The translations under genes and the position numbers were made by a program. Positions 32,220-37,639 of a stretch of 64,000 nt of DNA are shown piece after piece. The notes beneath the pieces were generated by a model. That model was not told the DNA's origin. It saw nothing but the letters and a program-made list of their open reading frames with translations, and made no database searches. This DNA is from Agreia sp. VKM Ac-1783 (GTDB lineage Bacteria; Actinomycetota; Actinomycetes; Actinomycetales; Microbacteriaceae). Location: positions 372,001 through 436,000 of the forward strand of contig NZ_FXWI01000002.1 of the NCBI RefSeq assembly GCF_900177765.1, written 5' to 3'. Positions within the stretch are counted from its first letter, which is position 1, and the number at the start of each line of letters is the position of its first letter.

Positions 32220-34493
32220 CTAGCCTTCGGCCGGAGCCTCGGGGCCCTCGCTGGCTGCAGCGGAGCCTTCGGTGTCGGCTTCGTCGGCGACGACGGGAGC
32301 GAGCGACAGCTTTCCGCGGTCGTCGATCTTCGTGATCTCGACCAGGATCTTCTGGCCGACGCCGAGCACGTCTTCGACGTTCTCTACGCGCTTGCCACCG
32401 GCGAGCTTGCGCACCTCGGAGATGTGCAGCAGGCCGTCCTTGCCCGGGAGCAGCGACACGAACGCACCGAACGTCGCGATCTTGACGACGGTTCCGAGGA
32501 ACTGCTCGCCGACCTCGGGGTTGGTCGGGTTGGCGATCGCGTTGACCTGGGCACGGGCGGCCTCGGCAGACGGACCGTCGACGGCACCGATGTACACGGT
32601 TCCGTCTTCCTCGATCGAGATGTCGGCGCCGGTCTCGTCTTGAATCGAGTTGATCGTCTTGCCCTTCGGGCCGATCAGCTCACCGATCTTGTCTACCGGG
32701 ATCTGAACGCTGATGACGCGCGGCGCGGTCGGCGCCATCTCGTCGGGCGCATCGATCGCGGAGTTGATGACGTTGAGGATCGCGGTACGCGCGGCCTTCG
32801 CCTGCTTCAGGGCGCCATCGAGCACACTCGTCGGCAGACCGTCGAGCTTCGTGTCGAGCTGGATCGCGGTGATGAAATCACTCGTTCCGGCGACCTTGAA
32901 GTCCATGTCGCCGAGCGCGTCTTCGGCACCGAGGATGTCGGTGAGCGCCGCGTAGCGGGTCTCTCCGTCGATGGTGTCGGAGACGAGACCCATGGCGATA
33001 CCCGCAACAGGTGCACGCAGCGGCACACCGGCGTTGAGCAGCGACAGGGTCGAGGCGCAGACGGAACCCATCGACGTGGAGCCGTTGGATCCGAGAGCCT
33101 CGGAGACCTGGCGGATTGCGTAGGGGAACTCGTCGCGGCTCGGGAGCACGGGTGCGATGGCGCGCTCGGCCAGGAAGCCGTGCCCGATCTCGCGGCGCTT
33201 CGGTGAACCCACACGACCCGTCTCTCCGGTGGAGTACGGCGGGAAGTTGTAGTGGTGCAGGTAGCGCTTCTTCTTGATCGGGCTCAGTGAGTCGATCTGC
33301 TGCTCCATCTTGAGCATGTTCAGCGTGGTGACGCCCAGGATCTGGGTCTCACCGCGCTGGAAGATGGCGGAACCGTGCACGCGCGGGATGACCTGGACCT
33401 CGGCGTCGAGCGGACGGATGTCGGCGAGGCCACGACCGTCGATGCGGATGCCCTCGGTGAGGATGCGGCCGCGCACGACGGTCTTGGTGACCGACTTGTA
33501 TGCTGCCGAGACCATCGGCGGGATGTCGCCCAACAGCTCGCCCGCGGAGACCTTCTCGTTGATGGCGAGCTTGACGCGCTCCTTGAGAGCATCGTCGGCG
33601 TCCTGACGCTCGGTCTTGTCGGCGATCTGGTAGATCGAGACGAGCTCGTCGTATGCGAGTTCGGCGACCGCGTCGTATCCGGCCTGGCTGTAGGCGGGGA
33701 ACACCGGGTATTCGCGGACCGGCTTGTTGACCTGAGCGGCGAGCGAGGCCTGGGCCTCGACGAGCTGCTTGAGGAACGGCTTGGCAGCCTCGAGGCCCTG
33801 GGCGACGATCTCCTCGTTCGGCTTCGTGGCGCCGGCCTGAATCAGGTTCCAGCTGTTCTCGGTGGCCTCGGCCTCGACCATCATGATCGCGACGTCCTGG
33901 TTGCCCTGGGCGTCGGTGACGACGCGGCCGGCGACGGTCAGGTCGAACACGGCCTCCTCGAGCTGCGAGTACTTGGGGAAGGCGACCCACTGGTCACCGA
34001 TCAGCGCGAGGCGCACGCCGGCGATGGGGCCCGAGAACGGGATGCCCGAGATCTGGCTCGACGCGGAGGCCGCGTTGATCGCCAGGGTGTCGTAGAACTC
34101 GTCGGGCGCGATGCTGAGCACCGTGATGACGACCTGGACCTCGTTGCGGAGACCGTTGACGAACGACGGACGCAGAGGGCGGTCGATCAGGCGGCAGACC
34201 AGGATGGCCTCGGTCGAGGGGCGTCCCTCGCGACGGAAGAACGATCCGGGGATCTTTCCGGCGGCGTAGCTGCGCTCTTCGACGTCGATGGTGAGCGGGA
34301 AGAAGTCGAAGTTGTCCTTCGGGTGCTTTCCGATGCTGGTGGCACTCAGCAGCATGGTTTCCTCGTCGAGGTAGGCCGCGACCGCGCCCTGTGCCTGCTG
34401 TGCCAGACGTCCCGCTTCGAAGCGGACCGTGCGGGTGCCGAACTTGCCGTTGTCGATGACGGCTTCGGCGAATTTGATTTCTGGACCCTCCAT
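32220..34493 (-). CDS. pnp: Polyribonucleotide nucleotidyltransferase (PNPase)
   Basis: 757 residues. This 3'-5' phosphorolytic exoribonuclease has two RNase PH-like domains (about 1-230 and 330-560), a KH domain ([17 protein letters not shown] near residue 610) and an S1 domain ([20 protein letters not shown] near residue 665). In actinobacteria it also has guanosine pentaphosphate synthetase history. The ATG follows AAGGAG at a good distance, so this gene uses an ordinary leadered transcript. It is separated from rpsO by about 2.9 kb of other genes. Confidence 0.97.
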
Positions 34494-34864
34494 ATGGGGG
34501 TTTTCTCCTTATGTGTTGTCTCTCGCCATGCAGGCGAAGAGAATTCGCGGCCCCGTGTGGGCTCTCGCGATGCGTACAGCGGAGTGGGGTGACAGAGCGA
34601 CATGCGGGTACTCGCCTAGTGCGAGACCCGTACACGTACGCGCCTTGTCGAATCCGAGGGATTCGAGGGATTCGTCAGAACCATCAGAGCATGGGGCGCA
34701 TGTCTGGCCAACAGTAGAAAACCTCGGACCGCTTCTCACGCGTTCCGAAACCCACCACCGGTGACCAGCGTCCTGCCGGCCTGCTCCGCATTTGATGCTC
34801 GTGTATTGATTTGTTCGAGTTGCCCACGAGGGGCAACAGGCCGATCTTAGCAGGCGTGCGCTCT
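34494..34864 (-). other. 371-bp intergenic region upstream of pnp
   Basis: No convincing gene. It holds the pnp Shine-Dalgarno (AAGGAG, just before the ATG), a hairpin CGGGTACTCGC/GCGAGACCCG (34605-34615 and 34621-34630) in the likely pnp 5' leader, and a 9-bp tandem duplication CGAGGGATT at about 34655-34672. A long pnp leader with a hairpin would fit post-transcriptional autocontrol as known in E. coli, but that is inference. Confidence 0.5.
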
Positions 34865-35503
34865 CTACGGCTGGATAGCGGCGATTGCGTCATCGGCGGG
34901 TCGTCCGACCTCGACGGTGAGAGGGCGGGCGAGACGTGTGAACGGCCGCGCCGGATCGGTCAGCTTGCCGTCGCCGAAGACCCGCGCCGGTACGGTGACG
35001 AGCACGCCCCCATCGCGCAGCTTCTCGAGGGCCTGACCGATGGATGCGTCGGTGCCGCGAGGCAGGAATCCCGCGCGAGCAGGTCTCGGGCCGCCCACGA
35101 AGTACGCCTCGACACGGAGTTCGCGGCCGAGCCACCGCGTGGCGCCGGGCCAGAGAACGACGGTGAGCGCTGGATCGGTCCAGCCGAGAGCGAGGTCGAT
35201 TGAATCCTGACGCCGACTGGTCTCGTCGAGCATGAGAACTCCATCGACGGAAACGGCGCGCACATCGAAGCCGTCGAGAGTCGCGAGCCGCGATGTCGAG
35301 TTGCGCTCTCCCCCACTCCTGAACCCGAGGCGCACGAGCTGCACGACCCCCGAGAGAGCGATCACGATGGCGATCGCACCGATGATCATGCCGATCACGG
35401 GCAGACGTGCCGTTATGGATGCGGCGAGAGCTGCGACGATCACGAGGCCGAGGAGAAACGGTTCCCATACGACGACGGAGAGCTTTCGGCGAGGTGCGGG
35501 CAT
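34865..35503 (-). CDS. Membrane-anchored member of the G-F-[LV]-P-R-G family, unknown function
   Basis: 212 residues. Two adjacent hydrophobic helices (about 12-32 and 34-58) are followed by a soluble domain. Near residue 150 it has ARAGFLPRGTDASIGQALEKL, matching the core shared with the next two genes upstream on this strand (GFVPRG, then an Ala/Leu helix and a Gly turn). The C-terminal part adds a unique strand-rich extension. A TTGGAT box lies 6 nt before the ATG. The core resembles the end of HIRAN-type domains by eye; this is uncertain. Confidence 0.72.
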   Translation of the reverse strand: MPAPRRKLSVVVWEPFLLGLVIVAALAASITARLPVIGMIIGAIAIVIALSGVVQLVRLGFRSGGERNSTSRLATLDGFDVRAVSVDGVLMLDETSRRQDSIDLALGWTDPALTVVLWPGATRWLGRELRVEAYFVGGPRPARAGFLPRGTDASIGQALEKLRDGGVLVTVPARVFGDGKLTDPARPFTRLARPLTVEVGRPADDAIAAIQP

Positions 35504-35543
35504 GGTTCAATCCAAGCATGTCCGCCCTCGGTGGATGGACCGC

Positions 35544-35969
35544 TCAGTATGCCTGGCCCATTCCGAGCTCGACTCGAAGTCCGTGTCGGGTGACGATGAT
35601 GGCGCACGGAATGCGAGGCGCTTTTCCTCGGTCTGACAGACGCCCGAGGCAGGCGTCGACCGGTGCTTCGAGCCCGCGAGGCACGAAACCGATGACTCCG
35701 CTCAGCTCCGGCCCCATCCAGAGACGCACCGGCATCGGGGCGTCGATACGATCCTCGGCTGGAGGCCGGCGTTCGACGAAAGCCTCCGTCGGCGAATCCG
35801 GAGACTCTCGCAGCTGGGCCAGTTCGCTCTGGAATGGCATGCTCCCCGCCGCTCTCAGGGTGACGTTCGTGAACCGGGGAAACAGGTTGTAGGTGTAGTC
35901 GGCGAGAGATCCCGCGCCCGCGTCGTGCCTGTCGGGAATCCCCGAGCCGCTCCGATCGCCCATGACCAT
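35544..35969 (-). CDS. Soluble GFVPRG-family protein, paralogue of the 143-residue neighbour
   Basis: About 141 residues, no signal peptide or membrane helix. Compared with the gene 56 bp upstream, it shares GSLADYTYNLFPR (versus GSLDDYLYDLMPR), TEAFVERR (TEAFIARR), DAPMPVRLW (DAPTPVRLF), GFVPRGLEAPVDACLGRL (GFVPRGLEAPVEAALGRL) and HGLRVELGMG (NGLRVDLAIG). They are clear tandem duplicates. I chose ATG 35969; ATG 35963 or TTG 35981 are alternatives. Function unknown. Confidence 0.75.
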   Translation of the reverse strand: MVMGDRSGSGIPDRHDAGAGSLADYTYNLFPRFTNVTLRAAGSMPFQSELAQLRESPDSPTEAFVERRPPAEDRIDAPMPVRLWMGPELSGVIGFVPRGLEAPVDACLGRLSDRGKAPRIPCAIIVTRHGLRVELGMGQAY

Positions 35970-36025
35970 AGGGCCATTCAACTCCCCTGGAGTTCCGGAG
36001 GGAAGATCGAGTTGCTCGATTCGAG

Positions 36026-36457
36026 TCAGCGCGTCAGACCGATGGCCAGATCGACACGCAGACCGTTCTTGGTCTTGCGGACAGTGGCCTGCATCCGGGT
36101 GGACTTGCCCGAATCGGCCAGCCGTCCGAGGGCCGCTTCGACGGGGGCCTCGAGGCCACGGGGAACGAAACCGACGACGGGCGTTGGCCGCTGGTTCACG
36201 AAGAGCCGCACGGGCGTCGGCGCATCGGTTCTCTCGTCGTCTGCGCTTCGTCTCGCGATGAAGGCCTCCGTCTCGCTCACACCCTGATCCACGACCGCCC
36301 GCAACGCGTCCTGACAGGGGTCGCTGTCGGCGATCTGGATGCGCACTTTCTGGTTACGCGGCATCAGGTCGTAGAGGTAGTCGTCGAGCGAGCCCGAACC
36401 CTGGTCGGTCTTCGCAAGTTCTGGGTTGTTGACGCGACCGAAGGAAAGAAATCTCAT
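36026..36457 (-). CDS. Soluble GFVPRG-family protein, unknown function
   Basis: 143 residues, starting MRFLSFGRVNNPEL. An N-terminal FGRVNNPE stretch, then GSGSLDDYLYDLMPR, a strand KVRIQIADSD, and the C-terminal core TPVRLF, GFVPRGLEAPVEAALGRL, NGLRVDLAIG. The strand-strand-GFVPRG-helix order resembles a HIRAN-like fold, where an Arg-containing G-[FY]-x-P-R loop precedes a helix, but the N-terminal part does not match closely. A TTGGAT box lies 6 nt before the ATG. The ATG (36457) lies 17 bp after the VanZ-like gene on the same strand. Confidence 0.77.
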   Translation of the reverse strand: MRFLSFGRVNNPELAKTDQGSGSLDDYLYDLMPRNQKVRIQIADSDPCQDALRAVVDQGVSETEAFIARRSADDERTDAPTPVRLFVNQRPTPVVGFVPRGLEAPVEAALGRLADSGKSTRMQATVRKTKNGLRVDLAIGLTR

Positions 36458-36473: not shown

Positions 36474-36929
36474 CTACGCGGCTCGTGCGCGAACGCGCGT
36501 GCGGCGACCACGACGCGCCAGCGATATCGACATGAGCACGACACCGAGGAGAACACCGATCGTGCCTCCGGAAGTGTTCGCCACGATGTCGGACACATCG
36601 GCGACGCGCGTCGGCAGGAGCGCTCCCTGCCAGATCTCTATGGCGCAGGAGATGCCACCACAGAGGATCATCGCGAGCCACCACTGCTTTCGGCCGAGAA
36701 GGAGTACGAAGAACATGCCCAACGGCACGAACATCGCAATATTCGCAACGAATTCGACCCGGTCGAACGTGATCCAGTCGGTCGCGTCATAACGGCCGAA
36801 GAAGTCGAGAAAACGCCACAGGATGCTGCTCGTGCCGTCGTCGTAGGGCTCCGGACCCAGGGTGACCCAACCCACGCCCGCCAGATAGAGCACCGTGAGA
36901 ACGGAGAGCACGGGATGGCGTCGGAACAT
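36474..36929 (-). CDS. VanZ-family membrane protein
   Basis: 151 residues, four helices. Family features: GVGWVTLGPEP at the end of helix 1, a D-W-I-x-F-D-R-V-E-F-V-A-N-I stretch, FVPLGMFFVLL, IEIWQGALLPTRVADVSDIVANTSGG and a last Gly-rich helix. VanZ-like proteins are implicated in teicoplanin resistance, but most family members have no known role. ATG 36929 gives MFRRHPVL; upstream in-frame codons add a hydrophilic stretch lacking family similarity. It is divergent from the acidic-protein gene. Confidence 0.87.
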   Translation of the reverse strand: MFRRHPVLSVLTVLYLAGVGWVTLGPEPYDDGTSSILWRFLDFFGRYDATDWITFDRVEFVANIAMFVPLGMFFVLLLGRKQWWLAMILCGGISCAIEIWQGALLPTRVADVSDIVANTSGGTIGVLLGVVLMSISLARRGRRTRVRARAA

Positions 36930-36979
36930 GAGTCGATCCTGCCGCACAAGTCTTGGTGGATCGTGTGCATGCACTGTTC

Positions 36980-36991: not shown

Positions 36992-37291
36992 ATGACTGAC
37001 AGAGAACTGGACGAGAGTAGCAACAACGACGGCAACGAGGACCTGCTTGAGGTATCGAGCGAACTCGACGACAGGGGCGACGCCGAATTCACGAACCCGG
37101 GCGATCCCTCGGTCGACGATGAGGAGTCCCTCGACGAGGATCTGCTCGACGGCACAGACACTGAGTTCAGTGTCGAGGAGAGCATCGACACCCTGCAGAT
37201 CGATGATCCCGACGAGACGAACGACGATCTCGACGACGAGGACTACAAGGCCGAGAGCGCCGAAGAGCTCGGCGACGACGACCGCGTCTGA
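36992..37291 (+). CDS. Highly acidic, probably disordered small protein
   Basis: 99 residues, of which about 43 are Asp or Glu and only four Lys or Arg. No hydrophobic core, no Cys, and one Tyr; the predicted state is an intrinsically disordered polyanion. No family is recognised. Its own -10 box at 6 nt from ATG, a terminator 25 bp after the stop and intact codon bias argue for a real gene. Possible roles by analogy include a nucleic-acid mimic, chaperone-like solubiliser or ion buffer; none can be shown from sequence. Confidence 0.72.
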   Translation: MTDRELDESSNNDGNEDLLEVSSELDDRGDAEFTNPGDPSVDDEESLDEDLLDGTDTEFSVEESIDTLQIDDPDETNDDLDDEDYKAESAEELGDDDRV

Positions 37292-37369: not shown

Positions 37370-37639
37370 CTATCGACGCAGGCCGAGACGCTCGATCAGT
37401 GCGCGGTAGCGCTCGATCTCGACGTCGGCCAGGTAACCCAGCAGGCGGCGACGCTGTCCGACCAGAAGCAGGAGTCCACGACGCGAGTGGTGGTCGTGCT
37501 TGTGCTCCTTGAGGTGCTCCGTGAGGTCCTTGATGCGACGCGTGAGCATCGCGACCTGGACCTCGGGGGATCCGGTGTCACCGGGGTGGGTTGCGTATTC
37601 TTCGATGATCGCCTTCTTGACATCAGCTTCAAGAGCCAT
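37370..37639 (-). CDS. rpsO: 30S ribosomal protein S15
   Basis: 89 residues, the exact usual length. It binds 16S rRNA helices 20-22 in the platform. Hallmarks: [49 protein letters not shown] and the terminal Y-x-x-L-I-x-x-L-G-L-R-R. AAAGGGG precedes ATG 37639. A standard promoter lies at 37731-37760, giving a leader of about 90 nt that could carry the autoregulatory site known for S15. Confidence 0.98.

Follow-up and report, generated by a model that had tools for sequence, protein, structure and literature searches.

Three adjacent small genes of Agreia sp. VKM Ac-1783 (Microbacteriaceae), here called A, B and C, are best explained as a fast-diverging branch of the HIRAN superfamily, usually found between rpsO and pnp, whose proteins are likely to hold a single-stranded nucleic-acid end with the ligand altered. 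About half of our confidence is placed in this explanation as a whole. C would be a soluble protein with one HIRAN-like domain, B an Agreia-only duplicate of this soluble one-domain protein, and A a related domain standing behind two predicted membrane helices, with the domain in the cytoplasm. The window, i.e., the whole stretch of 64,000 nucleotides that was analysed, carries the following features at this place:

32220-34493, minus strand: pnp (polynucleotide phosphorylase), the downstream boundary of the interval
34703-34769, minus strand: Actino-pnp RNA (RF01688), full-length, E 1.3e-5, 38.6 bits, which is below the gathering score of 47.7
34865-35503, minus strand: gene A, 212 residues, a hydrophobic N-terminus (7-62) and then a divergent HIRAN-like domain (about 85-200)
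35544-35969, minus strand: gene B, 141 residues, a soluble HIRAN-like paralogue of C
36026-36457, minus strand: gene C, 143 residues, soluble and HIRAN-like, the most constrained of the three
36474-36974, minus strand: VanZ-family membrane protein (PF04892, E 4.6e-20, 72.9 bits against a cut-off of 30.1)
36992-37291, plus strand: a strongly acidic protein of 99 residues, its gene oriented divergently to the VanZ gene and separating it from rpsO
37370-37639, minus strand: rpsO (ribosomal protein S15), the upstream boundary of the interval

On the minus strand, the ORFs of the window follow the order rpsO, VanZ, C, B, A and pnp, with 16 bases between VanZ and C, 56 between C and B and 40 between B and A, all on one strand. 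The ORF coordinates agree with a preliminary description of this DNA as to the three genes and their flanks, and the neighbour it called VanZ-like is a PF04892 protein. The VanZ gene, lying immediately upstream of C, is probably co-transcribed with it. The Actino-pnp RNA between A and pnp is probably the 5′ leader of pnp, which suggests that pnp has a transcript of its own. As for the acidic protein, tblastn detected it at 77-99% identity in each of six further Agreia loci examined and gave no match in the other 39 loci.

The dN/dS values against five Agreia strains are low, being 0.17-0.26 for A, 0.09-0.14 for B and 0.07-0.09 for C; A, B and C are thus real genes, and all of them are under purifying selection. 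The Agreia relatives found were A. pratensis, A. bicolorata and three Agreia sp. B and C had been taken for tandem duplicates, and this was confirmed by their identity of 48% over C residues 16-140 (E 3.6e-32). In the tree, the four B rows form one clade (100/100) inside the C family. The two genes occur together in seven of eight genomes of the genus Agreia, with B in every C carrier, and no second full-length copy of C was found in other genera among 299 family genomes.

The profile of A matches C proteins with E-values down to 2.3e-9, where positions 82-195 of A, approximately, correspond to residues 30-140 of C. By hhalign, the two align at 96.5% and 96.1% over 114 and 122 columns, and at 93.9% with the helices of A included. 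Decoys made from segments of seven other proteins (17 alignments) never exceeded 0.57% with A or 2.27% with C, and reversed ORFs gave no match to any of the six profiles. By these comparisons, the soluble domains of A and C are homologous. The common GF[LV]PRG core described earlier is real in that the three genes share sequence, but the shared part is a whole domain of about 115 residues and not the core alone. C is conserved in a DxGxGxLxDYxY arm, an RRxxxEERxDAP loop and a VGxVPRGLE segment; A has three invariant residues in 19 rows.

The hydrophobic N-terminus of A is one long stretch, sufficient for two helices, and the weak model of A (pLDDT 49) also draws two; the earlier reading of A as a membrane-bound protein with two N-terminal helices therefore stands, as a reading. 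Such a segment was seen in none of the 32 C/B rows. Arg and Lys residues flank the stretch on both sides, so that, according to the positive-inside rule, the domain of A would be cytoplasmic.

When the A profile was run on 150 family genomes, four soluble-domain matches fell outside the A and C families (L158, L159, L160 and L161). All four match the Pfam HIRAN family, PF08797 (E 1.2e-8, 3.9e-5, 6.8e-7 and 9.3e-5, respectively), two passing its cut-off and two lying just below it. Five further matches in these genomes (E 4e-5 to 6e-4) lie on membrane helices, two of them extending into the start of the domain, and the soluble profile of A also gives an unexplained match to L126 (E 0.0011). It was also observed that L158 (745-1956), L160 (1054-2133) and L161 (1028-2263) carry a second, weaker HIRAN-like copy behind the first, L158 having two DUF2510 stretches as well.

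In the other direction, a HIRAN profile of the same order, made of 16 rows from Pfam matches with no A or C inside, was run on 9,616 ORFs of the fetched loci. It gave 19 matches at E<=0.05, comprising five entries for four HIRAN proteins, 13 A entries (seven distinct genes) and one C, and nothing else. The best A match has an E-value of 2e-4 and the C match 0.025; reversed ORFs gave none. The set of ORFs is not a random one, as it comes from the fetched loci and is rich in A (43) and C (60) entries with duplicates; L158-L161 owe their inclusion to the A profile search. Independent evidence comes from the Pfam matches of these four proteins and from the matches of the HIRAN profile to A and C. 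By hhalign, A scores 94.8% against the 16-row same-order set (60 column shuffles reach at most 0.25%) and C 36% (shuffles at most 2.5%). The first HIRAN set, of 16 rows, was made without L113; the second was made without L180 and L183 and took 11 of the 16 rows of the first.

A canonical HIRAN domain with a hydrophobic N-terminus, near the Pfam cut-off, was seen in one related genus, g8 (L159, 1380-1937, and L213-L215). The orthologues of L159 in two further genomes of this genus are 74% and 67% identical to it; L214 passes the PF08797 cut-off and L215 does not. Against L213-L215, A aligns at 95% over 93 columns with the first half included, and C at 8.4% with the second half only. For A, the earlier remark that the first half fits HIRAN poorly does not hold in this alignment. 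A is detectably homologous to accepted HIRAN proteins, through profile matches in both directions and through hhalign scores of about 95% with two HIRAN sets. The direct evidence for C is modest, and its assignment rests mainly on its homology to A. As far as sequence can tell, A is related to HIRAN, and C mainly through A. Of nine papers that mention HIRAN domains as well as transmembrane proteins, none has membrane-anchored HIRAN proteins as its subject, judged by title and opening lines of the abstract, and no account of the g8 layout came up.

The Pfam scan found no match of PF08797 to A, B or C at E<=10, none in the window's own genome and no HIRAN in 32 C/B rows; for 19 A rows, HIRAN was absent among the best 25 of the 29 Pfam families listed, the remainder having E >=0.25. 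No credible library match was obtained for the three proteins (best NCBIfam E 0.05, Pfam E 0.14 and PHROGs E 0.92), and where single A rows match Pfam, down to E 0.0018, the families are those of membrane proteins and scatter across one to five rows. Among solved structures searched with the C and A profiles, nothing credible was found, the best being ribosomal P0 (E 0.018). The AlphaFold models are weak, with a pLDDT of 61 for C (12 rows) and 49 for A (6 rows). Beyond residue 36, the low-confidence C model shows six strands and two principal helices, and among the best 50 of 647 Foldseek matches there was no HIRAN structure. The leading Foldseek matches, PilB/PilF ATPases, were set aside as not meaningful (best E 0.016, TM 0.2).

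A rival reading is that A, B and C are unrelated to HIRAN, their G-[FY]-[LV]-P turn and the helix after it having arisen by convergence in a small β-barrel. The missing Pfam match would agree with that, and so would the 39-row HIRAN profile, built largely on sequences of the wider phylum, which matched five HIRAN entries and no A or C among the 9,616 ORFs. Against the 39-row set, hhalign gives A 50.5% and C 33%, and against a 14-row phylum set A only 6.8% and C 53%; the hhalign score depends on the HIRAN sample. Furthermore, SmpB-like and OB barrels are reported to resemble HIRAN (PMC4666394, PMC11090510). Against convergence, all four soluble-domain matches of the A profile outside the A and C families are Pfam HIRAN proteins, and the same-order profile picks up A and C and nothing unrelated. 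Of the 17 decoy alignments, some of them built from the S1 and KH domains of PNPase, none scores above 1.85% against the 39-row set, and over 93 columns A can be aligned with a membrane HIRAN family whose layout resembles its own. Convergence is considered unlikely on this evidence. That the link is strongest with HIRAN proteins of the same order is what is expected of a divergent branch. The three proteins are filed as a divergent branch of the HIRAN superfamily, outside PF08797, since they neither reach its gathering cut-off nor carry the NPxD loop. Of the HIRAN-like resemblance that had been noted by eye, the relation of the domain to HIRAN is upheld, but the Pfam cut-off is unreached and the loop that holds DNA is missing.

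In HLTF, Y72 and Y93 are described as flanking the cavity that takes up a dinucleotide, and the HIRAN point mutant is altered at N90/N91 (PMC4666394). The HLTF loop reads NNPYD. This NN-x-YD or NPxD loop is absent from the proteins studied here: C has EERxDAP, keeping only the Asp, and A has RWLGR, the loop PGATRWLGRELRV standing in gene A where the NPxD loop would be. As the DNA-holding loop has been replaced (R70...E-E-R-x-D78-A-P in C, RWLGR in A), the ligand has probably changed. C has 13 invariant residues in 32 rows, and eight of them (A43, R70, D78, R84, G96, P99, G101 and E103) fall in three segments that align with the cavity loops of HLTF, onto which they may be mapped. The predicted pocket of C probably still works, though not as in HLTF.

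The C gene was found in 77 of 299 family genomes (25 of 85 genera), a tally that includes one doubtful carrier (G021, E 0.0075), and the A gene in 20 of 150 (11 of 85 genera), again with one doubtful carrier included (G047, E 3e-4, two in-frame stops). The C profile, on 198 genomes of the order, found the window's own genome only. The A profile, on 296 genomes of the phylum, gave four weak matches outside the family (E 4e-4 to 1e-3), on membrane helices or the start of the domain. By these profile searches, the family is found in Microbacteriaceae only.

Neighbours were tabulated across Microbacteriaceae, as had been proposed, for 40 loci of about 12 kb from 38 genomes, hand-picked among the profile matches. 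Twenty of them show both rpsO and pnp, in every case with an A or C gene in between; 15 show one of the two and five show neither. The A or C gene shares the strand of rpsO or pnp in 35 of 35 loci. Two loci with neither in view (L061 and L064) are second loci of genomes that have an A gene in the interval. The genomic place of the family is conserved, and the position between pnp and rpsO, which had been pointed out for the window, recurs in the family; VanZ is in view in 12 of the 40 loci. Twenty genomes selected as non-carriers have neither gene within 10 kb upstream of pnp, a stretch in which rpsO is visible in 13 of them, and the idea of A/C as a universal occupant of the interval was rejected accordingly. 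One weak match of the C profile in these genomes (L203, E 0.045) overlaps rpsO in a different frame.

A and C are seen together in one of the 40 loci, that of Agreia (L059), and the other 39 show one of them. Counted by hand, and assuming that the 150 genomes are among the 299, 19 genomes have a full A, 41 have C and five have both, against about five by chance; A and C as obligate partners were thus rejected. That the three genes belong to one system, as had been suggested, is plausible for Agreia, given the close spacing of its VanZ, C, B and A genes, but the idea does not extend to the family, in which 39 of 40 loci lack the pair. Where both ends are in view (loci L059-L098 and L193-L212), the interval measures about 0.5 to 10 kb and holds varied small gene sets, including VanZ, as if it were a place that tolerates insertion. 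Among its genes are some that we take to be FMN-reductase-like, luciferase-like and thioredoxin-like; a neighbour presumed to be of the first kind is present in 14 of the 40 loci, and one presumed to be of the second in 12.

From the biology of the fold, the barrel cavity of these proteins would most likely serve to hold a single-stranded nucleic-acid end or a short oligonucleotide. The ligand is probably a small polar one, most naturally a single-stranded nucleic-acid end, with the specificity altered and perhaps shifted to RNA or to a nucleotide. The part of A would be to recruit this ligand, or a complex of it with C/B, to the membrane. A link with PNPase is an appealing idea, as the HIRAN domain of HLTF takes 3′ DNA ends, to go by the title of Kile et al. 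2015 (cited in PMC8262856), and PNPase is described as degrading RNA from 3′ ends (PMC5872136); gene order is its sole support, and a role in PNPase-linked RNA turnover is speculative. The fuller version of this idea, in which A is a membrane-tethered end-binder that acts with soluble C and B, recognises RNA 3′ ends and links decay by PNPase to the membrane, the genes being kept beside pnp for this reason, is held to be quite unlikely.

Two other accounts accept the relation to HIRAN and differ on what the domains do. The barrels may be derived from HIRAN and yet bind no nucleic acid, serving as protein or envelope modules, perhaps with VanZ, and their position between rpsO and pnp would then be simply inherited. 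This reading is a tenable one, though we hold it somewhat doubtful. It gains from the loss of the DNA-holding loop in all three proteins, from the pI of the soluble part of A (6.5) and of B (6.1), which is not basic, and from the few invariant residues of A; the leader that pnp has of its own and the closeness of VanZ to C, here and in the loci where VanZ is in view, also fit. C, however, retains invariant charged residues at the expected site of the HIRAN cavity, and VanZ is out of view in 28 of the 40 loci and is thus not an obligate partner. The remaining account makes A, B and C a toxin-antitoxin or phage-defence set, of the kind that HIRAN proteins next to HipA kinases may form; HIRAN domains are reported in HipL/HipN proteins and beside diDNases (PMC8262856, PMC11706625). 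No kinase or nuclease is encoded from A to VanZ, PADLOC reports nothing for A, B, C or VanZ, and inheritance in a conserved position with low dN/dS speaks against such a set; lacking both a partner gene and a PADLOC match, it was rejected as highly improbable. The constant place across genera, together with the absence of any kinase, nuclease or recognisable defence gene from A to VanZ, makes a housekeeping or regulatory role likelier than defence for the end-binding branch proposed here.

Bacterial HIRAN domains have been placed with kinases, diDNases and, by resemblance, restriction systems (PMC8262856, PMC11706625, PMC11090510), and those of prokaryotes were called uncharacterized in 2024 (PMC11090510). 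A branch that Pfam does not see, one of whose forms is apparently anchored in the membrane and whose ligand loop has been rebuilt, would widen the possible uses of the fold. Its proteins are small, conserved and open to experiment, and in a large actinobacterial family their genes adjoin the principal gene of RNA decay. With PF08797 itself (the N-terminal domain of HLTF/Rad5, a barrel of six strands with two capping helices; lp_0118, PDB 3k2y, in bacteria), A, B and C share the order of the conserved segments and are alike above all in the G-[YF]-[LV] turn, the helix that follows and the closing strands; they differ in lying below Pfam detection and in the replaced NPxD/NN-x-YD loop, and C also has an extra conserved N-terminal arm. 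HipN and HipL are bacterial HIRAN proteins too, but theirs is joined to HipS-like or kinase domains, of which A, B and C have none; for actinobacterial HipN, a loss of DNA-contact motifs has been reported (PMC8262856). The adjacent gene is a clear member of the VanZ family, whereas A has no Pfam match and its helices are not VanZ by the Pfam scan. The closest parallel in layout is given by the membrane HIRAN proteins of g8 (L159/L213, L214 and L215) and by L161, which, like A, have a hydrophobic N-terminus followed by HIRAN. L159 itself has 186 residues and the type 186-188, against the 212 of A; L159 and L213-L215 keep the canonical NPFD motif, unlike A, and in G014 the gene of this type is distant from pnp, at 3714 kb against 987 kb.
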